A DNA stretch of 33,679 nucleotides from Planctomycetaceae bacterium (GTDB lineage Bacteria; Planctomycetota; Planctomycetia; Pirellulales; Pirellulaceae), in contig WFWZ01000298.1 in NCBI GenBank assembly GCA_015490875.1, positions 1 to 33,679 of the forward strand, in the 5' to 3' direction. Shown here in pieces: positions 2,754 to 18,818 of this stretch. The notes beneath the pieces are model-generated. The model saw only the letters and a program-made list of their open reading frames with translations. It ran no database searches and had not been told where the DNA came from. The stretch's first letter is position 1. Every line of letters starts with the position of its first letter. Both the position numbers and the translations under genes were made by a program.

Positions 2754-3797
2754 TCACACGCGGCACGTTTCCGAATGAGCGCTGCGCATCGCGTCGGCGG
2801 CCGTTTCGGGGGCCAGCGTGTTGATCGTGCAGCCGGTAGCCCACTCGAAGCCGGCGACCGCCGTGCGCCTCGGCAGAACCTGAATCGACCAGTGGCTGGC
2901 CTCAGCGTGCGCCTCCATCAGCGGAGCCGTCTGCAGAATCACATTGTAGCTGCGCTCCTGGCCGCAAGGCCAATACGAACTCCAGCGAGCCAACGATTCT
3001 GCTAGTGACGCGAGTGTGTCGGAGTCGCTATCCGTGAAGTGAGTCGTGTGTTGTCGAGGGACGATCCAGCATTCTCCCGCCACGCGGCTGAACCATGGAC
3101 AGACGACGACGAACTCCGGATTAGCCTCGACAATCCGTTCCCCCTCGTGCAATTCCCATTCGAGCCAGTCGCAGGTAAGGCACCGGCCGGTCGCCTCGAG
3201 ATGTTGCGTGCAACGGGCTTCGCGCGCGGTGACCCAGGGTGGGATCTCTTGGAGCGCGAGCAACTGGCTGTGGGCATGCTCGATCGAGGCTCCGGCAGCC
3301 GGGCCTACATTTTTGAAAACGAGGCCGTAACGGAGTTGGTGAGCTTCGGCGGCCATGCGGAGCTGGTGCCGGTACGCCTGTAGGACCAGAGCCAGATGCG
3401 CTGGAGAAAACTCCGACCAATCGACGCGGTGATCGGCCGATTCGATGATGACTTCATGCACTCCTTCGGCTTCGCGCTGTTCTCCCCAGCGCGGGAACGG
3501 AGAAGCGTGGTTCGAGTGTGGCTTGTCCAGTTGGACGGGGCAGACGGCCGGGAACTTGTTGGGAACGACCCGAACATCCCAGGCGTAGGGAGAGTCCGGA
3601 AGACTCCACTGGGCGGTCGAGGGAGGTGTTTGGCCTTCGTTTTCGAGACAAAACGGGCAAGTGCTCTGGTTGCGGCGCACCGCGCGTGCCGCGAATTCGT
3701 TGGGGCGTCCTTCTCGTTCGGGAGCCACGATCGTCCACTGATCGCTGAAGGGGTCGTATCGGTAGTGGGGAGTGGAGTTGGCCGGCAGGGAGAGCAT
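2754..3797 (-). CDS. galT: Galactose-1-phosphate uridylyltransferase (GalT family)
   Basis: This enzyme exchanges UMP between UDP-glucose and galactose-1-phosphate (Leloir pathway). From ATG 3797 the protein is 347 residues. Cys47-Pro-Phe-Cys50 is the usual zinc pair, VVPNKFPA follows, then HEVIIESADH, and the histidine-triad-like active site HAHSQ (His174, His176, Gln178) after NVGPAAGASIE. The open frame runs upstream to 4211 but that extension overlaps glgA in another frame and has no family similarity, so the Met at MLSLPANS is chosen; its ribosome binding site is poor. It follows glgA on the same strand after 71 bases and probably shares its transcript. Related ADP-glucose phosphorylases look alike, so substrate specificity is not settled. 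Confidence 0.88.
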   Translation of the reverse strand: MLSLPANSTPHYRYDPFSDQWTIVAPEREGRPNEFAARAVRRNQSTCPFCLENEGQTPPSTAQWSLPDSPYAWDVRVVPNKFPAVCPVQLDKPHSNHASPFPRWGEQREAEGVHEVIIESADHRVDWSEFSPAHLALVLQAYRHQLRMAAEAHQLRYGLVFKNVGPAAGASIEHAHSQLLALQEIPPWVTAREARCTQHLEATGRCLTCDWLEWELHEGERIVEANPEFVVVCPWFSRVAGECWIVPRQHTTHFTDSDSDTLASLAESLARWSSYWPCGQERSYNVILQTAPLMEAHAEASHWSIQVLPRRTAVAGFEWATGCTINTLAPETAADAMRSAHSETCRV

Positions 3798-3868
3798 CGG
3801 TTTCTCGGGGGAATGGAGGATCGTGGGAAGTTGTCGGGGAGGGGGAACCACGCGCGACGGGCGCAGTT

Positions 3869-5371
3869 TCACCGGGGGTGCTGAGTTCCCAGGCGGCGCC
3901 GGTGTTCGGCGCACGTCTGCTGATACAGGGCATCGTATTCTCGAGCGCTTCGAGCCCAGGACCAGTCTTGGCGCATGCCGGTATCGACGAGTTGCTTCCA
4001 GACGTCGGGGTCGTCGCGGTAACACGTGACGGCGCGCTGCAAGGCGGCGGTCAGGGCCTCGGTCGAGTAGTGATGGAAGTGGAAGCCGGTGGCACTTCGA
4101 GCGGCCAGGGTTTGGGGAGTGACGTCGATGATCGTGTCGATCAGTCCGCCCGTGGCATGGACGATGGGAACGGTTCCATAGCGAAGGCTGTAGAGTTGGT
4201 TGAGCCCGCATGGTTCGTAACGGCTGGCCATGACGAAGATGTCGGCGCCGGCTTCGATGCGATGCGCTTGAGCTTCATCGAAGGCGAGCGTCACGTGGAG
4301 CCGATCGGGATGGGCCTGCATCAGTTGGCGGAGGCGTCGTTCGATGGCCGGATCGCCCGAGCCGAGGACGATCCACTGGAGGTCGGACGAAGCCAGTTGT
4401 TGTTCCAATAGGGGAAGGGTGATCTCCCATCCCTTTTGCGAGGCCAGGCGACCGATGAGTCCGATGAGGGGACGTCGCGGCTCGACAGCCAACCCGCTGG
4501 CCTGTTGCAGGGCGGCTCTGCAGGCCGCTTTGCCTTGTTGCCAGGTATCAGCGTCGTAGGTCTGCGCGAGATGAGCGTCGGTCGCCGGATTCCAGTGGTC
4601 GGTGTCGATGCCGTTCACGATGCCGGTCAAGACGTCGGCTCGGTGACGCAGCACATCGGAGAGTCCGCACCCCAAAGGCTCGCTTTGGATCTCCTCGGCA
4701 TAGGTCGGACTGACGGTGCTGAGCCGGTCGGCGAAGACGATCCCGGTCTTCAGCAGGTTCAGGTCGCCGTGGAACTCCATCTGCTTCCAGTTGAAGTACT
4801 TCCAGTCGATGCCCGTCAGCAGCATGTCCCAGTGCCAGAATCGGCCTTGGTAGGCCAGGTTGTGGATGGTGAGGAGCGTGGCGGTCTCGGCGAAGGGACG
4901 GTGGTGGCCGTAGAGCAATTCGCGGTAGGCGGGGATCAGGCCGGTCTGCCAGTCGTGGCAATGCAGCAGATCGACGGGGCGGTCCATCTGCACGAGTCCT
5001 TCCATGACGGCTCGGCAGAAGAAGACGAAACGCTCGCAGTTGTCTTGATAGTCCCGGCCGTGCTCGCCGTACAGTTGCGGGCGGTCGTAGTAGTCGGGTT
5101 GGTCGACGAGCCAGACGGTGACCTGGCTCTCGGGAAGTCGGCTCCGGAGGAGTCGGCCGCCGACGTGTTTGGAGGCGATGGGGATGTCCAGCTCGTAGTC
5201 GGTAACGTCGGCGGCGGGGCCCGACTCGAGAGCCTCCCGGTAGGCGGGGAGGAAGAGTTGGACGTCGTGGCCGAGGCGTTCCATTTCGCGCGGCAGGGCG
5301 CCCACCACATCGGCGAGCCCCCCCGTCTTGGCGAAAGGGACGGCTTCGCTGGCTGCGAAGACGATGTTCAC
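3869..5371 (-). CDS. glgA: Glycogen synthase (ADP-glucose dependent, GT5)
   Basis: GlgA elongates alpha-1,4-glucan from ADP-glucose. The 500-residue protein opens with [18 protein letters not shown] and continues LADVVGALP, the KTGGL nucleotide-sugar loop of bacterial starch/glycogen synthases. The second Rossmann domain contains [13 protein letters not shown] and [18 protein letters not shown], with the conserved Glu of the EPCGL block, then [16 protein letters not shown]. Length and motif order are normal and complete. It is the first gene of a glgA-galT minus-strand pair and is divergent from the ECF sigma operon. No clear promoter was found in the 278-base divergent gap. Confidence 0.96.
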
Positions 5372-5649
5372 GTCACTGTTTCACCGGTAGAGGGCTGGCT
5401 CCTTCCCTCAACTGGACGACTCCCGCCATCCTGGCAACGTGGAGAGACCCCGCGGGTCGTGTTCATTGTATTCGACGGGTCGCTCCTGGGCGGCTGAACC
5501 TTTTTTCGCCGAAGCGAGACTCACGGATCGTACCGGTCTTGCCGCCGAAGCGTTCCCGTTCCGGGTGGGGTCGACGTTCCATTACAATGGTAGGGAGGCA
5601 GCCGTGGCTCCGCGAGCGGCTGGAAATCGGCCGAGAGACCGGAAGAGGA

Positions 5650-6234
5650 GTGGACGAACTAGCAGTGAAGATCGACGTCGACGAAGTAGTGCGCGAGTAT
5701 TTCGACCGGATCCACCGGGCCGCCCTCGTGCTGACGGGCAACCCCTGGGATGCGGACGACCTGGCTCAGGAAACGTTCCTGGTGTTGGCACGGCAACCGG
5801 AGCGGTTTTCCGGACGGAGCCGGATCTTTACGTGGCTTTATGGGATCTTGCTCAACCTCGAGCGTCGCGAGCGGCGGCGCCGTTCGACGCGGCAGCGTGG
5901 ACTTCGGGTCGTCTCCGAGCGGCAACGGGACGAAGGGCGATGCGAGGTCCCAGCGGGTGATCACCTGGAGGTGGACGAGTGGCGAGCCGGCTTGTGGGGT
6001 CAGGTGGCTCGGTTACCCGACGGCCAGCGCCAAGCTTTGGTCTTGCGGTTCAGCGAAGGGCTGACGTACGAGGAAATCGCCCAGGCGCTTGAAATCCCCT
6101 TGGGGACCGTCAAGAGCCGCCTTTTCCATGGGCTGAACAACCTGCGGAAGTTGATGGGCGAAGAGGGGAGTCGTGGCGAGTGGATGAGCGGGCGGCCGGC
6201 CGAGGACGTGTTGCGAGCGGCACAAAGCGGGTGA
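5650..6234 (+). CDS. ECF-type RNA polymerase sigma factor
   Basis: This is a sigma70 family, group 4 (ECF) sigma factor of about 194 residues. Region 2 covers YFDRIHRAALVLTGN, DADDLAQETFLVLA and RIFTWLYGILLNLERR. A variable acidic linker follows, and region 4 contains LPDGQRQALVLRF and EGLTYEEIAQALEIPLGTVKSRL, a helix-turn-helix. The start is not certain. GTG 5650 and GTG 5665 both follow the purine-rich GGAAGAGGAG (5641-5650), while ATG 5587 has no ribosome binding site and overlaps a TACAAT. It is the first gene of a five-gene plus-strand cluster; the next start lies 7 bases after its stop, which suggests that its partner is the membrane protein downstream. Confidence 0.9.
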   Translation: MDELAVKIDVDEVVREYFDRIHRAALVLTGNPWDADDLAQETFLVLARQPERFSGRSRIFTWLYGILLNLERRERRRRSTRQRGLRVVSERQRDEGRCEVPAGDHLEVDEWRAGLWGQVARLPDGQRQALVLRFSEGLTYEEIAQALEIPLGTVKSRLFHGLNNLRKLMGEEGSRGEWMSGRPAEDVLRAAQSG

Positions 6235-6241
6235 CGACATC

Positions 6242-6739
6242 ATGAGACGGCAAGATGGCATATGGGCGGACGAGTCCGAGCTGAAAGAGGGTCCAGTGGT
6301 GGACAGTGCATGTCTTCCCGAAGATCTGGCGCAATTGGGAGTGACACTCCAACGGCAGGCGGAGGAGCTTTATCATCGCTACCCGGCTCCCGAACCTGAT
6401 CCGGCGATCGGCGCCGTAGCTGCGGCGGTTGGTCACCGGAGGCGGACTCGGTGGCCAGGTGTGGCTGCTGCGGTGCTGGCTGCGATCGCGATAGGCGGAA
6501 TATGGTGGTGGAGCGCCTCGGGAAATCGAGCCGTCGACAGCGTTGGGGTGGCGACACGTCGAAACGTCCCCGCGACGGTGGCTTCCCGCGAGACTGAGTC
6601 GGTTGCTCCCGTCGCGTCGACACTTCCGTCGGAATCGTCATGGGACGAGGCTTGGGCGCTTTACGTTTCGAGTCCCGAGTTGGAAGCCGTGCTCGATTTG
6701 GCGGATGACGAGGCAACACCGCTGCGTGTCGGCTTTTGA
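6242..6739 (+). CDS. Single-pass membrane protein, candidate anti-sigma factor
   Basis: The 165-residue protein has a hydrophilic N-terminal part (1-70), one strong membrane segment (about 71-91, ending in IWWW) and a Ser/Thr/Ala-rich C-terminal part ending in a short acidic region. The arginines before the segment (GHRRRTR) predict an inside N-terminus. It starts 7 bases after the ECF sigma stop, which is where anti-sigma factors usually sit. I see no HxxxCxxC zinc motif, so it is not a classical ZAS-domain anti-sigma. The role is therefore inferred from context and topology only. It could also be an unrelated small membrane subunit of the downstream proteins. Confidence 0.75.
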   Translation: MRRQDGIWADESELKEGPVVDSACLPEDLAQLGVTLQRQAEELYHRYPAPEPDPAIGAVAAAVGHRRRTRWPGVAAAVLAAIAIGGIWWWSASGNRAVDSVGVATRRNVPATVASRETESVAPVASTLPSESSWDEAWALYVSSPELEAVLDLADDEATPLRVGF

Positions 6740-6778: not shown

Positions 6779-8131
6779 ATGATTGCTCTGCGACAAAAAC
6801 CTGTCACATCGATGACGGCAACGGCCGCGGGGCGGGGGCTGGGGAGCATCCTGACGCGGGGCCGGCTTTGGCTGGGCGCGGCGCTCGCGATCGGCATGCT
6901 CGGGATCATGGGAGGAGAAATCATCGAACTGTCGGGAGCCGAACTCCCGGACCTCGAGTCGGCGGCGCAACGACTGATCGGTGGTGTGGTGACGGTGCGC
7001 GTGCCGGTGCCGGGAACCGAGGATCGGGGAGCGCGCGTCGTGGTCTGTTCGGGCGCGATCGTTGGCCCAAGTTGGGTCGTGACCCCGGTCTTTGCGGGTG
7101 CCGATAGTCGAGTCAAGATCACGCTTCCTCAGGGAAGACAAGTGGAAGGGACCATCCGCGTCCTCGATGAATACTCGGGGTTGGCGCTGGTTGGCCTTGC
7201 CGATGAGGTGGAGGGCGCGTTGCCGCTGGCCGAGGATCTTCCCGCCGTTGGGGCTTGGGTGCTCAGCGCGGCCGGTTGGGGCGCGGAAAAGCCGGTCGTT
7301 TCGTTGGGGATCGTTTCGGGGCACGATCGAACCGATCCGGGACTCGCGTATCCTCCTCTCTTGCAGTGTGACATGCGTGCGGCGAGGACTTCGAGCGGTG
7401 CGGCCGTTGTCAATCGCAAGGGAGCGATGGTGGGGGTTGTGGTGGTCACGGGAACCGACCAGGCCACGGGATTCACGTTTGCCGTTCCGGTCGACCACGT
7501 GAGGCGTTTGCTGCGGATTGCCCGTGAGCGGCGGAATGTCCAGGGCATAGTGGTACTCAAGCGGCGACGGCCGGAAGTCGGGATGGTGCTTGATGGGCAA
7601 CAGGGTGAAGTCCGAGTTGCTCGCGTGACGGCGGGGAGTCCGGCAGATCGAGCTGGCATCCAGGTGGGGGATCGGGTCCTTGCTGTCAACGGGGTGCACA
7701 TCCGATCCGTCTATCAGGCGATTCGCCCGGTATTGATTCGCCAGCCCGGGGACCGGGTGGTGTTCACTTTGGAGCGGGGGGGGGAGCAGCGCGAGGTGGC
7801 TGTCGTGTTGGGAGGCGGTGTCGAAGTACCGCGCGGCCGTTGGAACGACATCGCGCAATTTGTGCGACCTAAGATTGAGTGGAAGCAGGTCGACGTTGCC
7901 CGTGGCATCCGGGCTCGCCGAAAGGTCGATCCCGCCGTGGCTGCTTCCAGTCCCGATTCCGACACTGAAGTGGCTCGCCGCCAGGCCCTGCTGGAAAAGA
8001 GCCTCGAACGATACCAGGCAGCCTTGAAGGCACTTCAAGAACGTCTCCAGAAGAGTGAAGCCGAGCGGAAAGAGTTGCAACGTCAAGTTCGGGAATTGCA
8101 GGCGGAGGTGAAACGCAAACACGATCGATAG
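6779..8131 (+). CDS. Catalytically degenerate HtrA/DegP-like protein with PDZ domain and C-terminal coiled coil
   Basis: The 450-residue protein has a signal anchor or signal peptide (about 28-46), a trypsin-2 fold (about 62-250), a PDZ domain (about 265-345, with SPADRAGIQVGDRVLAVNG) and a coiled coil (about 397-446). In the trypsin fold, the VTNNHV block is replaced by VTPVFA, so the catalytic His is Phe105. The DLAVL block is SGLALV, so the Asp is Gly134. The GNSGGP block is SSGAAV, keeping Ser206. With two of three residues gone it should not act as a serine protease, and a binding or sensing role is more likely. It lies 39 bases after the membrane protein and 14 before the arrestin-like gene. 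ATG 6812 is an alternative start; neither has a clear ribosome binding site. Confidence 0.88.
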   Translation: MIALRQKPVTSMTATAAGRGLGSILTRGRLWLGAALAIGMLGIMGGEIIELSGAELPDLESAAQRLIGGVVTVRVPVPGTEDRGARVVVCSGAIVGPSWVVTPVFAGADSRVKITLPQGRQVEGTIRVLDEYSGLALVGLADEVEGALPLAEDLPAVGAWVLSAAGWGAEKPVVSLGIVSGHDRTDPGLAYPPLLQCDMRAARTSSGAAVVNRKGAMVGVVVVTGTDQATGFTFAVPVDHVRRLLRIARERRNVQGIVVLKRRRPEVGMVLDGQQGEVRVARVTAGSPADRAGIQVGDRVLAVNGVHIRSVYQAIRPVLIRQPGDRVVFTLERGGEQREVAVVLGGGVEVPRGRWNDIAQFVRPKIEWKQVDVARGIRARRKVDPAVAASSPDSDTEVARRQALLEKSLERYQAALKALQERLQKSEAERKELQRQVRELQAEVKRKHDR

Positions 8132-8145
8132 AAAGGAATGCACAC

Positions 8146-8577
8146 GTGGCCGTGGATGTGGCGATCGAATTGGATGAGCCGGATTGGGCGGATCCCGAGT
8201 GGAGTCGCCATTACGTCGCTGGCAACATCTTGTCGGGTGTCGTGCGGGTCCGGAGTGACCAGGAGGTCAATTGCCGTGGCGTGCACTGCGTCGTGGGATG
8301 GCATACCGAAGGCCGAGGCGACAAAGACGAAGGGATTGTCTGGAGCAAGACATTGCACGAGGGGCCGCTCTCGGGCGAACAGACCTTTCCCTTTCGCCTC
8401 ACTCTCCCGCTGAACGGTCCCATTAGTTATTCCGGTCACTACATTCGCATCGTTTGGACGGTCAACGCCGTCGTCGCGCTCGATTGGCAAAAGGATCCGT
8501 CGGCTGAAGTGCTGTTCTTCCTCATGCCGGCACCTTTTGTAGAATCCGAACGCGACGAGAGCAGTTTGGCATCTTGA
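8146..8577 (+). CDS. Small arrestin-like domain protein
   Basis: The 143-residue protein has no signal peptide or membrane segment and looks like a single beta-sandwich. YVAGNILSGVVRV, LSGEQTFPFRLTLP and GPISYSGHYIRIVWTV resemble the arrestin N-like fold, also seen in Spo0M-type proteins. This is recognition by pattern, not a database result. GTG 8146 is chosen because AAAGGA lies 8 bases upstream; an ATG at 8138 is in another frame. It sits between the degenerate HtrA and a membrane protein that seems to carry a second arrestin-like domain, so the two may interact. Function is unknown. Confidence 0.8.
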   Translation: MAVDVAIELDEPDWADPEWSRHYVAGNILSGVVRVRSDQEVNCRGVHCVVGWHTEGRGDKDEGIVWSKTLHEGPLSGEQTFPFRLTLPLNGPISYSGHYIRIVWTVNAVVALDWQKDPSAEVLFFLMPAPFVESERDESSLAS

Positions 8578-8592: not shown

Positions 8593-9834
8593 GTGCGGAC
8601 TCTGTCAGCAGGCTCGACGTTCGCTTGGGAAGTTCCTCGAGTTGCCGGGGCGGCTCAAGGCCATCGTTCTCTGATGATCTTCGGAGCCGTATTTGCGGGC
8701 TTTGCGCTGATGATCGGGTTGCCGATCTTCTTCGGCGGCAATGTGAAGGGGGCGGAGCTGATCGGCTTTTTCGCCTTCCTGGGGCTGTTCGTGGGCGCCG
8801 GACTTGCCATCTTCTTTGCGGGGCTTTTCGTAGGACGCGGGCGAGCCACGGTGGTGATGAACGGTGATACGATCGTTTACGGCAAACGCCTGGGGCCGTT
8901 TTCGATGCGGCGCATTTTGAGGCTGGATGAGGGGGGCCGGTTCAAGATCGTCTCGGCACGCAGCCGGCGAGGAGCCTTGCTCGGCGCGCGCAATGTGGAA
9001 TACGAGTCGGCCTTGGGGGAGAGTACGGCTGTGGCGACGGAGGTGTCATCCGAGGATGCTCGCGCTTTGGCCGAGGCTCTGTCACAGGCGACGGGAAGGC
9101 GCTGGTTTGATACGACCGATGATTCGGCGATCGATGAGGTGCTCGATGCGGTCGACGACCAGGACGCGCGTCTTGCCCAGCGAGATCAACAGGTGAAGCT
9201 CGAGTACGATTCGCCACGGGTGCGCTGGCTGACACTTCTGATAACTGGAAGCGTGATCACCACCGCCACGATCGGCGGAGTGATCGTCTTCACACGGGCG
9301 ATCGGTAAGGTTCCCATCCCTGCCTGGATTTTCGGCGGGGTTTTCGCGCTGGTCGGTTTGGTCATCATCGGCGCGGGGGTCTATCAGCTCCTCGTGGAAA
9401 AGCGATTCGAGGAGCCGGAACTGAAAGTGTCGGTCCATCCTCTCTTGTTGGGAGAGGATTTCACGGTGACGTACCGCCACCCGGTCCGAGCCAAGTTCTC
9501 TCACGGCGGCGCAACCTTGACACTCACGGCCGAAGAGCAAGCCCAATATCGGCGGGGGACCAACACCTACACGGTGACCAAGACGATCGTCGAGCAGACA
9601 CGGGAATTGGTTCCCGCCGGTTCCGTAGCGGCCGGCGACGCGTTGACGGGGGAGGCAACCTTCGAGGTGCCGTCCAGCGCGATGCACACGTTCGAAGCAT
9701 CGAATAACAAAGTTCTTTGGAAGTTGGCGCTGCGAGTCGACGTGCCCGGCTGGCCCGATTTTCGTGCCACGTACGCCTGTCGCGTGTTGCCTCGAGTCGC
9801 CCTTTCGGCCGAGCCCGCACCATCCGAGGCGTGA
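8593..9834 (+). CDS. Four-TM membrane protein with C-terminal arrestin-like domain
   Basis: The 413-residue protein has two membrane hairpins: helices at about 27-48 and 55-80, and again at about 215-237 and 243-267. A soluble stretch of about 130 residues between them contains beta-rich sequence such as VVMNGDTIVYGKRLGPFSMRRILRL. The C-terminal part (about 270-400) resembles an arrestin-like sandwich, with ELKVSVHPLLLGEDFTVTY and then GDALTGEATFEVP. GTG 8593 is preceded by a strong AAGGAGGTG. It ends the ECF sigma cluster and converges with the MFS gene. I do not recognise a named family. A membrane-anchored partner of the 143-residue arrestin-like protein is inference. Confidence 0.82.
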   Translation: MRTLSAGSTFAWEVPRVAGAAQGHRSLMIFGAVFAGFALMIGLPIFFGGNVKGAELIGFFAFLGLFVGAGLAIFFAGLFVGRGRATVVMNGDTIVYGKRLGPFSMRRILRLDEGGRFKIVSARSRRGALLGARNVEYESALGESTAVATEVSSEDARALAEALSQATGRRWFDTTDDSAIDEVLDAVDDQDARLAQRDQQVKLEYDSPRVRWLTLLITGSVITTATIGGVIVFTRAIGKVPIPAWIFGGVFALVGLVIIGAGVYQLLVEKRFEEPELKVSVHPLLLGEDFTVTYRHPVRAKFSHGGATLTLTAEEQAQYRRGTNTYTVTKTIVEQTRELVPAGSVAAGDALTGEATFEVPSSAMHTFEASNNKVLWKLALRVDVPGWPDFRATYACRVLPRVALSAEPAPSEA

Positions 9835-12004: not shown

Positions 12005-13474
12005 ATGGCCATGGTTATCCGGCGTTGGTTGGTCGTGAAGGGAGTTTTCTTCGCTTTAGGGCTTGGTTCCCTCACCTGCGTCGCGGATGAACAGCTCGTC
12101 AAGCTGATCGACAAGACCAAGCCGGCGGTTGTTTCGGTGCGCACTGACGACGGCCTGGGATCTGGCTTCATTGTCGATGCGGACCTGGTGGTTACGAATT
12201 ACCACGTCATCAAAGGGGCGTCCGCTGCGACAGTCAAACGCGTCGACGGAGTTACTATCAAGGTTGAAGGCCTCCGATTCATCGATCCTCAGCGAGATAT
12301 CGCTGTCTTGCATGTCCCGGCCATCGGTCGCGGTATCGCACCGCTTTCGTTGGCCCAGGAAAGCCCCCGTCAAGGGCAGGATGTCATCGCGATGGGGAAT
12401 CCGCTCGGTTTCGAGTTCAGCGTGACGCGGGGTATCGTCAGCGCGGTGCGTACTGCGGAGTCACTCAAGTCGATACTTCCCGGCATTGATCTGGCTGGCA
12501 CCTGGATCCAGACCGACGTGGCCATTTCGCCGGGGAACAGTGGTGGACCGTTGGTACTGATGACCGGTCAGGTGGCGGGCATGAACACGTTTTCGCGCCG
12601 CGGCAGCCAGAATCTCAATCTCGCAATATCGTCGGTTGACATCGCCACAGCCGTCAAGACAGCTAAGTCCCGAAGTCCCCAACCTCTGAGTACAGCTTCC
12701 GAGAAGGCGGTAGTCAACAACGATGATACTCAATCGAAGATCGCCGAGCTAATCATCGCATCCATTTCGAAGTCGATCGCGAAGCTGTCTGACGCTCAAC
12801 TGAAAGAACTCACCGACCTCGACAGCCAGCGTCTGAACACTCTGCTGACACCTCAGTCGATCCACGCCGTAGGAGAAAAAACAGTCGCTCGCATTCAGGG
12901 AAGAGCCACGTTGGTACAGGTCTTACCCTCTTCGCTGCTTGTGATGATCGACGGTGCGATCTGCGAGATCTTTACGGAAAGGGCTCGAGAGATTGGAGCC
13001 AAGACTGCGGGGCGAGTGATCACAGGCCTGCGAATCGATGGAACCTACGTGGTTGGGACGGCGACCCCTTACAAAACTACTGCCGGAGATATCAAGTACG
13101 CGCTCGCCTTGGTTCCCCTTGCCGAGTTGAAATCCGAATACTGGAATAAAGACGTGGCCGCTTTCATCAGTAAGGAAATCGAGAAACGAAAACTTGAGGA
13201 AGAGCGACAGCGAAACCAGGCTCTCGAACGAAGAGCCCAGAGGCTCAGGCGGGAGTTCACGGACGCGAGCGGCGTTTACTCTGTCGACGCGGTCGCCGTA
13301 GGCTATGACGGAACGACGGTACGACTCGTGCGAATGGACAATCGAAAGATCGTCAAAGTTGCCATAACGAAGTTGTCCGAGGCCGACCAAGAATGGGTCG
13401 ACAAGAACGCTACAGTCATCAAGTACGGTGGCAAGAAGCTGGAAGAATATCTCACCAAGTCGGCAAAGAAGTGA
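12005..13474 (+). CDS. Secreted trypsin-like (HtrA-type S1C) serine protease with C-terminal SHD1 domain
   Basis: The 489-residue protein has a signal peptide (MAMVIRRWLVVKGVFFALGL, likely cut after Ala27) and a trypsin-2 domain with the full triad: His67 in VVTNYHV, Asp98 in RDIAVL and Ser179 in PGNSGGPLV. There is no PDZ domain. A middle region of unknown fold (about 215-390) leads to a charged helix (about 390-418) and an SHD1-type domain (about 418-470: GVYSVDAVAVGYDGTTVRLV, then KVAITKLSEADQEWV), an arrangement typical of planctomycetes. ATG 12005 follows GGAGGG by 7 bases. It is monocistronic and flanked on both sides by the GACGC-type repeats. It contrasts with the degenerate HtrA at 6779. 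Confidence 0.92.
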   Translation: MAMVIRRWLVVKGVFFALGLGSLTCVADEQLVKLIDKTKPAVVSVRTDDGLGSGFIVDADLVVTNYHVIKGASAATVKRVDGVTIKVEGLRFIDPQRDIAVLHVPAIGRGIAPLSLAQESPRQGQDVIAMGNPLGFEFSVTRGIVSAVRTAESLKSILPGIDLAGTWIQTDVAISPGNSGGPLVLMTGQVAGMNTFSRRGSQNLNLAISSVDIATAVKTAKSRSPQPLSTASEKAVVNNDDTQSKIAELIIASISKSIAKLSDAQLKELTDLDSQRLNTLLTPQSIHAVGEKTVARIQGRATLVQVLPSSLLVMIDGAICEIFTERAREIGAKTAGRVITGLRIDGTYVVGTATPYKTTAGDIKYALALVPLAELKSEYWNKDVAAFISKEIEKRKLEEERQRNQALERRAQRLRREFTDASGVYSVDAVAVGYDGTTVRLVRMDNRKIVKVAITKLSEADQEWVDKNATVIKYGGKKLEEYLTKSAKK

Positions 13475-13650: not shown

Positions 13651-13679
13651 TTGACTTGCCAATCCCCTCTCCTTACACT
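13651..13679 (+). promoter_or_regulatory. Candidate sigma70-type promoter at the head of the TPR-ExbBD operon
   Basis: TTGACT (13651-13656), a 17-base spacer and TACACT (13674-13679) match the sigma70 consensus at 5/6 and 4/6. The predicted transcript start would fall at or just inside the ATG at 13684, so either the mRNA is leaderless, the true start lies downstream, or the match is fortuitous. Confidence 0.35.
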
Positions 13680-13683
13680 TCCC

Positions 13684-14775
13684 ATGGCAAGCACGCAACG
13701 TGTTGTCTTGGAAGGAGTTCGGGCGATTTTCGGCAGTCGACATTCGCGAGGTTCGCTGAGGCGAGCGGTTTCTTGTGCCATCGGTGCGGTCTTGGCGTTG
13801 TCCGCCGCGCGAGCGGATACAGTCTGGGTGCGCCGAGTCGATGGAGGGCTTGAGGAACGCCACGGCCAGATCGTCGAATACCGGGGCGACCTGTTGGTAC
13901 TCAAGCGGAGTGCTATCCGAACCGAACGGATCGCCGCCGCCCGCATCGCCCGCATCGAAGCTCGTTATGGGACTCGCCATTTACAAGCGGAGGCGGCGTT
14001 CGCTCGTCATGAGTACAACCGGGCTCGGCAGCTTTTCCAAGAGGCGATGGCGACCGAGTCGCGAGAGTGGGTGCAGCGAGCGGAATTGGCACGTATCATC
14101 CAGTGCGACTGGAACCTGGGGCGCGATACCCAGGCGGCTCAGCAGTTTCTTGTCCTGCTGCGCAGCGATCCGACGCTCTTGCACTGGGAAGCCGCTCCGC
14201 TTCACTGGCAGGCACAACCCCTGACAGCTTCCCAGCGGCGTTGGGCGCAGGAGCATCTCCAAGACCAGACCTTCGCTGCCGTGCGACTGGTTGCGGCTAG
14301 TTGGCTGTTGGCCGGATCGGAGCGGCCTCGAGCGCTCGAGCAACTCAAGGACCTGGCCGAATCGGGCGATGCCAGGATTCGCTTCTTAGCGCGAGCCCAA
14401 CAGTGGCGCGTTCGCTGGCCCGGTATCAAGGCGCCGCCGGTGGAGGAAGCAGCCGAGACGCTGACAACGGTCGACCAGCGCCTGCGCAAAGGCCCCTGTT
14501 TTCTGATCGCCGAGGCGCACGCGCGAGCATCTCAGAAGGAAGACGCCGTCTTGTGGTGGCTGCGCGTCGGCTTGCTCTATCCTCATGACGTGCGCCTGGC
14601 AGCGACAGCCCTTTGGCGAGCCGGCAGGCAACTTGAGGAGTTGGGTCGGAAACCTGAGGCTCGTCGCCTCTACTACGAAATCCTCCAGCGATATCCCACT
14701 CGCCCGGAAGCAACTCGAGCCCGGAAGCAGCTTGAGTCTCGAGCGGCGAACCAGAAGAAAGCGAACCCATCATGA
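13684..14775 (+). CDS. Exported TPR-type protein of the ExbBD cluster
   Basis: The 363-residue protein has a basic stretch and hydrophobic segment (RRAVSCAIGAVLALSAARA), likely a signal peptide cut before DTVWVRR. A short beta-rich segment (GQIVEYRGDLLVLKRSAIRT) is followed by helical repeats (ARHEYNRARQLFQEAM and, near the C-terminus, GRKPEARRLYYEILQRYP) of the tetratricopeptide kind. The start is uncertain: ATG 13684 has no ribosome binding site, while GGAAGGAG (13711-13718) lies inside without a usual start codon at the right distance. Its stop overlaps the ExbB start (ATGA), so the products are probably made together. It likely works in the periplasm or its equivalent. Confidence 0.85.
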   Translation: MASTQRVVLEGVRAIFGSRHSRGSLRRAVSCAIGAVLALSAARADTVWVRRVDGGLEERHGQIVEYRGDLLVLKRSAIRTERIAAARIARIEARYGTRHLQAEAAFARHEYNRARQLFQEAMATESREWVQRAELARIIQCDWNLGRDTQAAQQFLVLLRSDPTLLHWEAAPLHWQAQPLTASQRRWAQEHLQDQTFAAVRLVAASWLLAGSERPRALEQLKDLAESGDARIRFLARAQQWRVRWPGIKAPPVEEAAETLTTVDQRLRKGPCFLIAEAHARASQKEDAVLWWLRVGLLYPHDVRLAATALWRAGRQLEELGRKPEARRLYYEILQRYPTRPEATRARKQLESRAANQKKANPS

Positions 14776-15473
14776 CGGACACGACGGCCGCCCCCCAGGG
14801 TTTTCTCGATATCGTCTTTTCCGGTGGTCCCGTCGGCATCGGCATCATGCTGGTGCTGCTCGCCCTTTCCCTTACCGCCGTCTACTTGATGATCGAACAA
14901 CTCCTGACGTTGCGACGGCGCGAGTTGATGCCGGAGGGGATGGCGGATCAGGTACGCGGCCTGATCCTTCAGAAACAGGTTTCCAAAGCCGTGGAACTTT
15001 GCAAGGAGAAACCGAGTCTCTTGTCGTTTGTGCTACTCAACGGCCTTTCGGAACTCGAAGGAGGCTGGTCCGACGTCGAGAAGGCACTCGAGGACGCCAT
15101 TGCCGAGCAGGCGGCTCGGCTGATGCGCCGCATCGAGTATCTGTCGGTGATCGGCAATATCGCGCCAATGGTCGGACTGTTGGGAACGGTTTCGGGCATG
15201 ATCCTGGCCTTCCAGCGCGTGGCGGTCACGCAAGGATCGGCGGGGGCGCCGGAGTTGGCCGAGGGCATCTATCAGGCGCTCGTCACGACCGTGGGCGGCC
15301 TGATCGTGGCCATCCCGTCGCTCGCGTCGTTCGCCGTCTTTCGTAACCGGCTCGACCAGTTCGTCGCGGAAGCCTCGTTCCTGGCTCAACACGTCTTCGC
15401 CCCGCTGAAGAAACGGAAGCGTCCGGTCCGTGCCGAGCCTCCACGTCCTCCGCGAACTCGAGGAGGCGGTTGA
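14772..15473 (+). CDS. MotA/TolQ/ExbB family proton channel protein
   Basis: The 233-residue protein has three membrane segments in the TolQ/ExbB layout: about 17-40 (GIGIMLVLLALSLTAVYLMI), about 125-147 (IGNIAPMVGLLGTVSGMILAF) and about 160-185 (LVTTVGGLIVAIPSLASFAV). GLLGTVxGM and TTVGGLIVAIP are the signature blocks. It should form the proton-driven stator with ExbD. ATG 14772 overlaps the stop of the TPR gene and its own stop overlaps the first ExbD start. No TonB or TolA gene is adjacent, so the energised partner is unknown. Confidence 0.94.
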   Translation: MTDTTAAPQGFLDIVFSGGPVGIGIMLVLLALSLTAVYLMIEQLLTLRRRELMPEGMADQVRGLILQKQVSKAVELCKEKPSLLSFVLLNGLSELEGGWSDVEKALEDAIAEQAARLMRRIEYLSVIGNIAPMVGLLGTVSGMILAFQRVAVTQGSAGAPELAEGIYQALVTTVGGLIVAIPSLASFAVFRNRLDQFVAEASFLAQHVFAPLKKRKRPVRAEPPRPPRTRGGG

Positions 15474-15898
15474 TGCAGGTACCTCGATTCACCGATGGTC
15501 GCGGCGTCCATTTCAACATGACGCCAATGATCGATGTCGTCTTCTTGTTGATCATCTTTTTTCTTGTCTCCAGCCATCTGGCCAAGCAGGAGACGCAGGT
15601 GGAACTCGAGCTGCCTCACGCATCCAGTGGCGAAGAGAAAGCTCCTGAACCGCCACATGTCACGCTGAACGTCCGTCCCGATGGCCAATGGCTTTGGGGC
15701 AACCGCCCCGTGACCAAGTCGGAATTAACCCGGCGGCTCGAACAGAAGCGCCGGGCGATCGGCGGACCGCTCATTGTGCGCATTCGAGGCGACGAGCGGG
15801 TCCCGTATCGAGCCGTCGAGCCGCTCTTGCGCGCGTGCGCTCACGCGGGCGTTCGAGAAGTACGCTTCGCCGTATTCCCCGATTCGGAGTCATCGTGA
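15473..15898 (+). CDS. ExbD/TolR family protein (first copy)
   Basis: The 141-residue protein has a short cytoplasmic N-terminus, one membrane helix beginning NMTPMIDVVFLLIIFFLV with the proton-carrying Asp21, and a periplasmic domain ending in the ExbD beta-alpha fold (EPLLRACAHAGVREVRFAV). ATG 15473 overlaps the ExbB stop (TGATG) and follows AGGAGG (15461-15466) by 6 bases. It is one of two adjacent ExbD proteins. Confidence 0.93.
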   Translation: MQVPRFTDGRGVHFNMTPMIDVVFLLIIFFLVSSHLAKQETQVELELPHASSGEEKAPEPPHVTLNVRPDGQWLWGNRPVTKSELTRRLEQKRRAIGGPLIVRIRGDERVPYRAVEPLLRACAHAGVREVRFAVFPDSESS

Positions 15899-16353
15899 TG
15901 CGTCGCGTCAGCTTGTTCGCTCGACGAGAAGGGCTGGAGGTTGCGATGACGCCGATGATCGACGTCGTCTTCCTGCTCCTCGTCTTTTTCATTTGGACGG
16001 CCAGTTTTCAGATTCCCGAGCAGTCCCTTTCCAGTTCGATCGCCGCTCCGCCCGTCGGCCAGGGGGCTGCCGTCGAAACGCCGCTGGCCGCGGAAGATGA
16101 CTTCGATCAGGTGGTGGTGCGCGTTTTGGCCGACGGTGACGCCGTTCGGTGGCGAGTCAACGACCAGCCGGTGGACAATCGCAGGCAACTGCGATCGCGC
16201 CTTGCAGCGATTGCGGCGGTCCGCCGCACGGCTCCCGTTGTCCTCCATCCCGATTCCGATGTGCCTTTGGGCGCGGTGATCGCCACGTACGATGTGGCTC
16301 GCCTCGCCGGCTTCGCTTCGATCCAGTTCGCGACTCCCGCGGAGGCACCATGA
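15898..16353 (+). CDS. ExbD/TolR family protein (second copy)
   Basis: The 151-residue protein has the same plan as its neighbour: EVAMTPMIDVVFLLLVFFIW with Asp22, then a periplasmic region with HPDSDVPLGAVIATYDVAR, the usual ExbD C-terminal fold. ATG 15898 overlaps the previous stop (TGATG), with an in-frame GTG just before. The two copies share the membrane helix but differ in the periplasmic part, which suggests a hetero-dimeric ExbD pair. Confidence 0.92.
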   Translation: MRRVSLFARREGLEVAMTPMIDVVFLLLVFFIWTASFQIPEQSLSSSIAAPPVGQGAAVETPLAAEDDFDQVVVRVLADGDAVRWRVNDQPVDNRRQLRSRLAAIAAVRRTAPVVLHPDSDVPLGAVIATYDVARLAGFASIQFATPAEAP

Positions 16354-18818
16354 GCGGCATCCTTCGATTATCGGTCGTCGCGGCACTTGCGGTGGGAATC
16401 GCCGGGTTCCTTCCAAGAGCGGCTTTCGCCCACGCCGAGGATTGGGATGATCGTTTTGTGGAGGCACTTCGGGAGCGACGTTTGTGGGAGTATGCAGACC
16501 GCGTTTGTCGCGAGCGATTCGACCGGGCGAAGGAGGCTCGCGAGGCAGCCCATTGGACGGTCGAGGGAATGCGGACCGACGCAGCACGGGCGCTCGAGGC
16601 ACCTGCCGAACGCCAGACAGCGTTGTGGAAAAAGGTCGAAGCATGGGCGGACCGGTTTCAGAAGCGCTTTCCCGATTCACCGTGGGCGTTGCAAGTGGCC
16701 CTCCAATCGGTGCTCGCCAAACTGGCTCAGGGCGAGGCGAAGCGACTGGAGAGTGAACTGACTCGAGGAGACGATCGCGTTCGGCTCCAGCGGGAAGCTC
16801 TGGCCATCTTGCGCAAAACGGAACGGCGCCTTCGCGAGTTGACTCGGCGGATGGAGCGCGGCGAGTTCCAAGGTGGCGACCAAGATACGTCAATGCCACC
16901 GGAAATCATGCAGAACATCGAAAATCAGCTCGTGCTGGCCGGTGCGAGAGTCTACTGGAACCGGGCGCTCTGCTACGCGCCGGGGACCGACGATCGACTC
17001 GCAGCACTGGAAGCGGCTCGATCCGATTTCCAACGACTCGTCCGTCAGACTCGACCGCAGGATCGCATTCAGGTCGAAGCTCTTCTTGGACTAGCCCGGT
17101 GTCAACGCGTGCTCGGCGACTTCGCCGAGGCCGAAAAGACACTTCGGTCTCTCGAGCGTCTCCCCGACGTTCCGGCTCGGTGGAAGCTGGAGGCGGATGC
17201 CGAGCGGTTACTGTTGGCGCACGAGCAGCATCGGAGTCGCCTCCCCGTGGAGCCTCGAGTCGGACGGGCCATCGACGGCGTGCACTCGCCCGTGTGGGAC
17301 CTGGCAGCCCTGCAGGTCCTCTTGGACCGGTTGGCACTTGGGAAAGGCGATCAAGCGGCGAAACTTCAGGAGGAAATCGACCGGGCCATTGCAACGATCG
17401 AGGTCGTACACGGTCCGTACTGGGGGCGGCGAGCGACGCAGTTGATGGTTGAGCAGACTTCCGGGGTGGCCAGTATCGCCAGCGCTCGGCTGCTCGAGCG
17501 TTCCGCTCGCGAGAAACTCGGGGGTGGAGCCTGGCAGGAGGCGGTGACACTTCTGCGTCAGGCTTCGGAAGCGGCTTCTCGAAGTGGCCGAAACGAAGAG
17601 GCCTTTCGACTGGCCTACCAGGCGGCACTGGTCCAGCAACAGCATGGAGCGTGGGAGGAAGCGGCCGAAGCGCTTCGGTCGCTGGCTTTGCGCTGGCGTC
17701 GCGACACTCGAGCCGCTCAAGCGCATTTGTTGGCGATCTGGTCTTTGGGGAAGGCTCGAGGCGACGAGTTGGCGCGCGACCCGACGTACTTGAGTTGGCT
17801 CGATGACCAAATCCATCTTTGGCCGGATGCGGAGGCTACCCACCGAGCGCGTCTTTGGATGGCGAAATGGCTTCGTGCCAAAGCCAAGTATCGAGAGGCC
17901 CTTCGCGTGTTAGGTGCCGTGGCACCTTCGAGCAGCGCTGCAGCAGACGCGGATCGCGAGCTTTTCCTGGTTTGGTTATCACTCTGCCAGAAGGCAGGGG
18001 ATTCGCCGGCGTCGAAAGACCTTCTGAAAGAGTTGGAATCGTTTTACCGGGAACATTTCACTGCTGCGAACGACGACGAGGCAACGGTTTGTTCCTTCCG
18101 GATCACCTATTACCAGATGCGAATGTTGCTCGAAGGAAAACCTCGCGACGAGACCATGGAGAAGTTGCGGCAGTGGGCGGAGACGCCATCGGACCGGGCG
18201 GCTTGTTCCGCTCGGTCGCGATTCGTCCTGGCGGTGTGGGGAGAGCGGGAGGTGAGCCGTTTGGAGGAGGCTGATTGGAAGGAGTTGCCTCCTATGCAGT
18301 GGCACTGGCTGGGGATTCTCTGGCAGCAGCGCTTGCGGGAATTGGAGGAGCGTCGGCGGCTTGGAGCGTCGGTGGCCGCGTTGTTCGAGCGAGGATTGCA
18401 GGAGTGGGGAGACCGGATCGATCCTCGCGAGCGGCTCTATTGGCTTCAGGTGCGCGCCGACGCGCTGGCCGTGTCCGGAGAACGAGCGGCTGCTCGTCGG
18501 TTATTGGAGGATCTTGTCAAGAAACATCCAAGCGACATTGGCGTGCGCCAATCGTGGGCTCGGTTCTTGGCCCACGGCGAGGGAGAGACCGAGTGGCGCG
18601 AGGCGGAAGCGGCGTGGCGCTACCTTGCTTTGAGACTCAAGCCCGGCTCTGCGCCCTGGTACGAAGCCAAGTACGGCGTCGCTCGCGCACTGTTCCTGCA
18701 AGGAAAAAAGGAAGACTGCCGACAGCGGCTGCAGTACTTGAAGGCGACGCGAGGATTCGGCCCACCGCCATGGGAGCAGCGGCTACGCGACTTGGCGCGG
18801 CAGTGCGGTGTGCAGTAA
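16350..18818 (+). CDS. Large exported TPR/helical-repeat protein
   Basis: The 822-residue protein starts MSGILRLSVVAALAVGIAGF and has a probable cleavage after AAFA. The rest is almost wholly helical and charged, with irregular repeats of about 35-45 residues of the tetratricopeptide type, for example GLARCQRVLGDFAEAEKTLR, WMAKWLRAKAKYREALRVLG and RADALAVSGERAAARRLLED. No catalytic domain is visible. ATG 16350 overlaps the ExbD2 stop (ATGA) and follows GGAGG (16341-16345). It ends a five-gene translationally coupled operon and may be a periplasmic scaffold energised by ExbBD; that role is inferred. Confidence 0.9.
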   Translation: MSGILRLSVVAALAVGIAGFLPRAAFAHAEDWDDRFVEALRERRLWEYADRVCRERFDRAKEAREAAHWTVEGMRTDAARALEAPAERQTALWKKVEAWADRFQKRFPDSPWALQVALQSVLAKLAQGEAKRLESELTRGDDRVRLQREALAILRKTERRLRELTRRMERGEFQGGDQDTSMPPEIMQNIENQLVLAGARVYWNRALCYAPGTDDRLAALEAARSDFQRLVRQTRPQDRIQVEALLGLARCQRVLGDFAEAEKTLRSLERLPDVPARWKLEADAERLLLAHEQHRSRLPVEPRVGRAIDGVHSPVWDLAALQVLLDRLALGKGDQAAKLQEEIDRAIATIEVVHGPYWGRRATQLMVEQTSGVASIASARLLERSAREKLGGGAWQEAVTLLRQASEAASRSGRNEEAFRLAYQAALVQQQHGAWEEAAEALRSLALRWRRDTRAAQAHLLAIWSLGKARGDELARDPTYLSWLDDQIHLWPDAEATHRARLWMAKWLRAKAKYREALRVLGAVAPSSSAAADADRELFLVWLSLCQKAGDSPASKDLLKELESFYREHFTAANDDEATVCSFRITYYQMRMLLEGKPRDETMEKLRQWAETPSDRAACSARSRFVLAVWGEREVSRLEEADWKELPPMQWHWLGILWQQRLRELEERRRLGASVAALFERGLQEWGDRIDPRERLYWLQVRADALAVSGERAAARRLLEDLVKKHPSDIGVRQSWARFLAHGEGETEWREAEAAWRYLALRLKPGSAPWYEAKYGVARALFLQGKKEDCRQRLQYLKATRGFGPPPWEQRLRDLARQCGVQ

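Follow-up and report, generated by a model that had tools for sequence, protein, structure and literature searches.

A degenerate HtrA-fold protein as a probable non-proteolytic adaptor in an ECF sigma factor operon of Planctomycetota

A three-gene sigma factor locus

The window, the whole 33,679-nucleotide stretch of contig WFWZ01000298.1 from a Planctomycetaceae bacterium that we analyzed, carries three consecutive genes on one strand (Table 1). They encode a sigma factor, a small membrane protein with a single predicted span, and an HtrA-fold protein devoid of a catalytic triad, hereafter called pseudo-HtrA. As judged from the related loci that we compared, this order is conserved, with pseudo-HtrA as the third gene. 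A same-strand ECF sigma gene lies upstream of pseudo-HtrA in 17 of 19 loci from the family (G028 and G030 were left out) and in 14 of 15 further loci from the order, and the three loci where none is seen (L046, L049 and L075) end within ~200 bases upstream of pseudo-HtrA. A small membrane protein is encoded between the two in all 31 loci, as it is in the window.

Table 1. Features of the sigma factor locus, by position in the window
Feature	Position	Strand	Description
glgA	3869..5371	-	Glyco_transf_5, E 2.4e-79 (starch synthase catalytic domain); divergent; not proposed as part of the module
Candidate ECF-type promoter	5495..5524	+	TGAACCTT, spacer, GACTCAC
ECF sigma-70 family factor	5650..6234	+	Pfam Sigma70_r2, E 5e-12; Sigma70_r4, E 4e-15
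Single-span membrane protein, anti-sigma-like	6242..6739	+	Transmembrane segment at residues ~72-93; tail RVGF-COOH
Pseudo-HtrA	6779..8131	+	450 aa, ATG start; signal peptide or anchor, chymotrypsin-like (protease-like) domain without triad (~60-250), PDZ (255-346), linker, coiled coil (394-449)
EVGMV, residues 266-270 of pseudo-HtrA	7574..7588	+	Likely PDZ carboxylate-binding loop; G268 invariant; PDZ_2 match starts at residue 267
C-terminal coiled coil of pseudo-HtrA	7958..8125	+	Model helix 394-449; a coil of this type is fused to the membrane protein in five other genomes

The sigma protein comprises, by Pfam, sigma regions 2 and 4 only, as is typical of the ECF class. Its start is probably one of two GTG codons, at 5650 or 5665. 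A start at 5539 appears too long, because similarity to most orthologues begins near residue 37–46 of the frame opened there. Upstream, a galT-like open reading frame (2754–4211) overlaps glgA, and in 23 of the 35 loci with enough flanking sequence, divergent glgA and/or galT genes lie no more than 1.5 kb upstream of the sigma gene.

A promoter-like motif recurs in front of the sigma gene. The pattern TGAAC-N16..18-GCAC, with one mismatch allowed in GCAC, was found in 22 of 34 loci (37 minus the near-duplicates L033, L041 and L044), whereas 200 dinucleotide shuffles gave 1.6 on average and never more than 6; the motif was enumerated and tested on the same 34 sequences, so these statistics are optimistic. 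The window and a locus from the same genus (L048) fall outside the 22 and carry sites of a looser form. The strict pattern has no match in the window, and the window's own form has no second site in its genome, where we found no regulon. The motif suggests that the sigma factor probably transcribes its own operon, and TGAAC-N17-GCAC offers a usable handle for the regulon of this sigma group.

Pseudo-HtrA has the layout of HtrA (S1C) proteins, a chymotrypsin-like domain followed by a PDZ domain. Pfam matches above the curated cut-offs place Trypsin_2 at residues 90–220 (E 4e-11), PDZ_2 at 267–342 (E 2.9e-13) and PDZ_6 at 280–333 (E 1.4e-13), and the sequence matches in the PDB are DegP, DegQ, DegS, HtrA and other PDZ proteins (best E 1.3e-16). 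An AlphaFold model of the monomer, with a mean pLDDT of 76.4, consists of two domains and a long C-terminal helix at residues 394–449. Many blocks within the domains score 80–95 and some 51–79, and residues 401–450 score 91–96. The model superposes best on DegS carrying an activating peptide (3gdu_C; Z 22.0 over 280 residues, rmsd 7.8), tied with other DegS, AlgW and DegP entries at Z ~22, and the matches to HtrA proteins span residues 51–349. A preliminary description of this DNA, made from the sequence alone, had called the protein an HtrA fold with a well-preserved PDZ domain and an added coiled coil, and had suggested an overlay on HtrA structures. The superposition, the PDZ matches, the conservation of PDZ positions across 35 related sequences and the modelled C-terminal helix all agree with it.

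Two finer features of the protein bear on its location and ligand. The N-terminal hydrophobic segment is modelled, at low confidence, as a helix at residues 29–45, and the N-termini of most orthologues look by eye like signal peptides, which makes release in place of anchoring possible. Within the single PDZ domain, residues 266–270 are a candidate for the loop that would bind a ligand carboxylate; the HMMER alignment of pseudo-HtrA to DegP puts the loop region elsewhere.

The middle protein has one hydrophobic segment, and in 29 of 32 homologues the side N-terminal to it is the more positive, which by charge places the N-terminus inside. Its AlphaFold model, of low confidence as a whole (pLDDT 67), contains a helix at residues 27–46, the transmembrane helix at 72–93, a low-confidence linker and a C-terminal helix at 144–156. 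Searches for a Pfam family and for a sequence match in the PDB returned none. Five of the 32 middle proteins touch two NCBIfam anti-sigma models far below the cut-off (best E 2.9e-4), the four of them that were identified scoring 18.6–19 bits against cut-offs of 100 and 225. An anti-sigma factor is its probable role.

Loss of the catalytic triad and distribution of the group

Alignments to DegP and DegQ structures place F105, G134 and S206 of pseudo-HtrA in the columns of the catalytic His, Asp and Ser. Seven distant HtrA relatives that served as controls (L117, L119, L121, L122, L124, L125 and L127) show intact H, D and S in those same columns. The preliminary description had proposed that His and Asp were lost and Ser kept, and for the window sequence this is what the alignment gives.

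The loss extends to the whole group. In an alignment of 35 pseudo-HtrA sequences that includes the window's own, and from which the fragments L025, L029 and L031 were left out, every sequence lacks the His-Asp-Ser triad. The His column holds R in nine sequences, F in eight, Q, L and D in three each, and other residues, with H in none; the Asp column holds G in 26, T in six and Q, S or N in the rest, with D in none. The Ser column is S in 16, C in five, A in five, T in three, R and L in two each, and G and H in one each. Ser, Cys or Thr thus stands there in 24 of the 35, leaving 11 with A, R, L, G or H, and an orthologue from the same genus as the window (L009) has Gly. By entropy, the Ser column ranks 189 among 287 columns and the His column 262, among the most variable. 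In view of this variability we reject the idea that Ser was kept by selection: the "kept Ser" of the preliminary description is true of the window's protein and fails for its family.

Other positions are far more constant. D130, G207 and G268 are invariant (35/35 each), R264 and P265 are kept in 34 of 35, and the Gly of the oxyanion motif is replaced by Thr (T204) in 33 of 35, so that the window reads TSSGA and not GNSGG. What the group conserves is the fold, the PDZ domain and a remodelled "TSxG" turn. Because the triad His and Asp are absent from all 35 sequences while PDZ and fold positions are conserved, selection appears to have acted on binding rather than cutting, as had been supposed, and a search of the 35 for an orthologue with an intact triad found none. 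On the simplest reading, the catalytic site was gone before the group diverged. We take pseudo-HtrA, on this alignment, to be a real, conserved pseudoprotease.

A comparable case is MamO, a magnetosome pseudoprotease of the HtrA family whose active site is degenerate and whose role is non-catalytic. MamO is described as binding a transition metal and as activating proteolysis that depends on MamE; Thr stands in place of its Ser, and its H116 and D149 were mutated as triad residues (PMC4794232). Pseudoproteases of the MamO type are also marked by a di-histidine metal site on the surface and by a place in the magnetosome island. The pseudo-HtrA group differs from MamO in lacking both His and Asp in all 35 sequences.

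The group is narrowly distributed. Pseudo-HtrA has a match in 22 of 241 genomes of the family at E<=1e-25 and in 24 genomes of a 296-genome sample of the order at E<=1e-40, the best few candidates per genome being scored in both searches. Three of the 219 family genomes without a match carry a fusion or a cut-off copy. Carriers of homologues include Pirellulaceae metagenome-assembled genomes and Blastopirellula marina DSM 3645. A sample of 397 genomes of the class, members of the order included, added no genome beyond the order, and a profile search of 392 genomes of the phylum gave 37 matches at E<=1e-25, of which three orthologues reached E<=1.4e-164 and the next match 3.3e-36. As far as sampled, the group appears restricted to one order, in Pirellulaceae and relatives including Blastopirellula marina.

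The middle gene co-occurs with pseudo-HtrA. It has a strong match (E<=1e-12) in 21 of the 241 family genomes, 20 of which also have pseudo-HtrA. Two genomes (G070 and G073) have pseudo-HtrA without the middle gene, at contig ends, and the one with the middle gene and no pseudo-HtrA (G051) holds a fusion. Outside the family, 64 genomes of the order (G241–G304) include 15 with pseudo-HtrA, and 14 of these have the middle gene; in the fifteenth (G275), pseudo-HtrA sits at a contig edge, and a weak middle-gene match on another contig was ignored. Three further clear middle-gene matches in this set are fusions. The loci compared here were also the source of the middle-gene profile, which makes the co-occurrence partly circular. 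Its informative part would be the matches found elsewhere, of which the strong ones (G051, G255, G257 and G273) are fusions and a weaker one (G063) is a pair cut off by the contig. Of the 24 family genomes with a sigma gene at E<=1e-50, 21 have a pseudo-HtrA match (on another contig in G073). Among the remaining three, the contig of G063 ends within pseudo-HtrA, whereas G051 and G027 each carry a fusion.

Weak middle-gene matches (E 1e-5 to 1e-3) were seen in a further seven genomes (G144, G032, G024, G168, G095, G072 and G215), on contig C2 of G027, and, as a second match, on contig C154 of G000. One more, in G282, was dropped, its fragment showing no match to the window's sigma factor, glgA or pseudo-HtrA.

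The tail of the membrane protein and its natural fusions

The middle protein ends in a striking pattern. All 32 middle proteins terminate in hydrophobic-x-hydrophobic-COOH, compared with 5 of 99 control proteins encoded in the same loci (sigma factor 4/37, pseudo-HtrA 0/30, glgA 1/20, galT 0/12). The last position (P0) is I in 17, F in seven, L in six and M in two; P-2 is L in 14, V in ten and I in eight; and P-1 is Ser in 22. The middle protein of G063, which is additional to the 32, ends in MDF. By mean entropy, the protein is most conserved in the last three residues (1.56), in region 139–155 with the C-terminal helix (1.73) and in the N-terminal helix (1.95). The linker is less conserved (2.74), and the stretch 156–162, which separates the C-terminal helix from the tail, is not conserved (3.03). 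With hydrophobic residues at both P0 and P-2, the tail is PDZ-ligand-like in its sequence.

In five genomes the middle protein and the coiled coil are joined in a single gene. Two of these genomes belong to the window's family (G051 and G027), one to family f16 (G255) and two to f18 (G257 and G273), and a sigma gene lies upstream in each. In each fused protein, the N-terminal part and transmembrane segment of the middle protein continue without a break into a pseudo-HtrA-type coiled coil. Missing are both the conserved C-terminal helix and tail of the middle protein and the PDZ and protease-like domains of pseudo-HtrA. The fused proteins end in STR, TRP, DKR, KDK and KAK, so that none of the five has the hydrophobic-x-hydrophobic pattern. 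In searches of small sets of open reading frames, the coil profile matches four of them at E 1e-12 to 1e-15 and that of G027 at 4.7e-10. The four fusion genomes searched for an orthologous pseudo-HtrA contain none, their best HtrA-like match being at E 2.7e-25 compared with E<=1.4e-75 for orthologues, and G027 has no pseudo-HtrA at E<=1e-25. Because fusion genomes keep the module with neither domain, the protease-like and PDZ domains appear dispensable in some lineages.

The fusions probably do not share one origin. On the sigma factor tree they need three changes if four fusions are counted and four if five are. Approximately unbiased (AU) tests against a single fusion clade gave p 0.0036 for four fusions in a 37-row alignment, 0.148 for the same four in 39 rows, and, for five fusions, 0.111 in 39 rows and 0.219 with outgroups, so that a single clade is rejected in the first set only. 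The fused coils themselves are of two types, those of G051 and G027 being nearest to the window's family, whereas the coils from G255, G257 and G273 come closest to f16, f19 and f11. At least two fusion events are likely, because the coil types match different lineages and because of the taxonomy. Rooting with two diverged loci (G055 and G110) is weak (54/6), both having long branches, and the tree gives no support to a split that preceded fusion. We read the fusion as a covalent replacement of a contact between PDZ domain and tail: the coil would have to be joined to the membrane protein, whether by a clamp or by fusion.

The two diverged loci just mentioned lie in the family and keep the gene order, with a transmembrane protein encoded between a sigma factor and a pseudo-HtrA that are both diverged. 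The tail of one transmembrane protein fits the pattern (HLSL) and that of the other does not (QNAI). Pseudo-HtrA of the G110 type was sought in 80 family genomes and gave five matches including itself; the other four, from genus g60, have no same-strand sigma match in the flanks retrieved and would count neither for nor against the tail idea.

Further out in the phylum, the 12 next-best HtrA loci comprise seven with an intact triad and five without the triad His, and the ~1.5-kb flanks of these 12 contain no sigma gene. The best of them (L116) aligns over profile positions 23–438, nearly the whole length, and with only 425 bases preceding the gene on its contig it may be a distant relative of the module. 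Five of the 12 distant relatives thus have neither the triad His nor, within their short flanks, a sigma gene, and triad loss by itself would not imply a role in a sigma module. The operon, the tail and the fusions would be the marks of the pseudo-HtrA group; triad loss is not rare in the phylum.

As a separate observation, diverged HtrA relatives without the triad His recur in the family and the phylum, here at 11 loci (L162–L165 of genus g60, L154, L155, L116, L118, L120, L123 and L126), for most of which no sigma gene was detected close by. Pseudoproteases of the HtrA type seem to be common among Planctomycetota.

A proposed adaptor role and its alternatives

We consider it probable that pseudo-HtrA is a periplasmic, non-proteolytic adaptor in an ECF sigma signalling operon, with its PDZ domain clamping the tail of the membrane protein. 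The sequence comparisons bearing on this are the group-wide loss of the triad, the gene order, the tail, the fusions with their joint absence of tail, PDZ and protease-like domain, and the promoter-like site in many loci. The structural match to DegS with bound C-terminal peptides, the best one obtained, points the same way. From the sequence comparisons we infer PDZ–tail binding, anti-sigma activity of the middle protein, a direction of regulation and a signal; for the PDZ–tail contact the argument is the tail pattern together with the fusions. The five distant relatives without the triad His and without a nearby sigma gene lower our confidence slightly.

In the proposed mechanism, the short cytoplasmic part of the middle protein would probably hold the sigma factor, acting as the anti-sigma part, and its periplasmic tail would offer the hydrophobic-x-hydrophobic C-terminus to the PDZ domain. 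By taking up that C-terminus, the PDZ domain would tether pseudo-HtrA, coiled coil included, to its membrane partner. The state of the membrane protein would change if this contact were lost, strengthened or competed for, as a periplasmic ligand bound in the PDZ groove or the dead active-site cleft might bring about. How free the sigma factor is would change as well, and the sigma factor in turn probably transcribes its own operon.

A bolder version of the adaptor reading we put forward only tentatively. The module could be a protease-free transmembrane sigma switch, in which a dead HtrA clamps the C-terminus of the anti-sigma factor and so attaches a coil sensor, and in which fusion replaced the clamp more than once. 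Were this true, the coiled coil would be the output element, and the protease fold would serve as a linker that can be removed and can be tuned by ligands.

The combination of an ECF sigma factor, a single-span membrane partner and a one-PDZ periplasmic HtrA-fold protein resembles the envelope-stress module of DegS, RseA and RpoE and its counterpart of AlgW, MucA and AlgU, and pseudo-HtrA has some of its best structural matches in DegS and AlgW. Three differences from DegS/RseA stand out. Pseudo-HtrA lacks the triad, so no site-1 cleavage is expected and cleavage of the anti-sigma factor is unlikely. The likely PDZ ligand here is the partner's constitutive C-terminus, whereas DegS responds to misfolded porins. 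Finally, pseudo-HtrA has a C-terminal coiled coil, and fusion variants exist without a protease-like or PDZ domain. Most likely, we propose, the operon is a protease-free variant of the DegS/RseA architecture.

HtrA proteases initiate the regulated proteolysis of membrane anti-sigma factors. According to one published account, a DegS-type PDZ domain binds hydrophobic free C-termini (PMC8103513). Here a similar architecture has lost its cutting function in all members sampled across one order, and the natural fusions hint at which parts of the module are needed. The locus lends itself to direct tests of whether a protease scaffold has become a module for binding alone in transmembrane signalling, and it provides a functional hypothesis for an uncharacterized operon of Planctomycetota. 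Among the matches listed from open-licence literature, neither this operon nor a pseudo-HtrA in a sigma operon of Planctomycetota was described.

The adaptor could also work as a shield. As described in the same account, RseB/MucB is a non-proteolytic periplasmic protein that is encoded in the sigma operon and acts on the membrane anti-sigma factor (PMC8103513). Pseudo-HtrA is likewise periplasmic, sigma-operon-encoded and, by its sequence, non-proteolytic, and it differs from RseB/MucB in having an HtrA fold and a PDZ domain. In this mechanistic variant of the best explanation, pseudo-HtrA would cover the hydrophobic C-terminus, a degron, from a real protease of the Prc/Tsp, DegS-like or DegP-like kind until a signal removes it. 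Prc and HtrA proteases recognize hydrophobic C-termini, and the genome encodes both HtrA relatives with intact triads (L002, L003 and L005) and a Prc-type protease (30444–32522). The joint absence of tail and pseudo-HtrA from the fusions would fit as well. However, no protease of the window was found conserved beside the module (the only one tested lies at 12005–13474), and a pure shield leaves unexplained why the coil stays attached in the fusions. We regard the shield as unlikely.

More doubtful still is a general periplasmic chaperone or holdase that is a mere target gene of the sigma factor and makes no contact with the middle protein. Inactive HtrA proteins can serve as chaperones, the pseudo-HtrA gene lies in the sigma factor's operon, probably under a common promoter, and other pseudo-HtrA genes have no sigma gene nearby. 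Such a role leaves unexplained both the tail conserved in 32 of 32 middle proteins and the fusion of a pseudo-HtrA-type coil to the membrane protein. That pseudo-HtrA is still a protease, using its Ser206 (Cys or Thr in some relatives) with another base, is very improbable. In its favour, S, C or T stands in the Ser column of the 24 sequences counted above; against it, the 11 others have different residues, Gly occurs there within the genus, the His position is variable and the oxyanion Gly has given way to Thr in 33 of 35.

The non-proteolytic adaptor that we favour leaves the neighbouring genes of the window outside the module. Close behind pseudo-HtrA, an Arrestin_N-like gene (8146–8577) and a membrane protein gene (8593–9834) were rejected as parts of it, with no match in the other 34 loci. 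The preliminary description had set pseudo-HtrA against an intact protease nearby, encoded 3.9 kb downstream at 12005–13474 (Trypsin_2, E 4e-27; NYHV, RDIAV and GNSGG by reading); this contrast is probably incidental. The protease has no PDZ match in Pfam, and we reject a functional link to the module, its gene having no match at E<=1e-3 in 34 module loci, whose flanks range from nothing to ~8 kb.

Two observations on this part of the window stand apart. The protein of 12005–13474 joins a triad-bearing trypsin-like protease to a C-terminal SHD1 domain, without a PDZ match, an unusual combination. Beyond it, at 13651–18815, genes for a TPR protein, a MotA/TolQ/ExbB-family protein, two ExbD proteins and a long TPR protein stand in a row.
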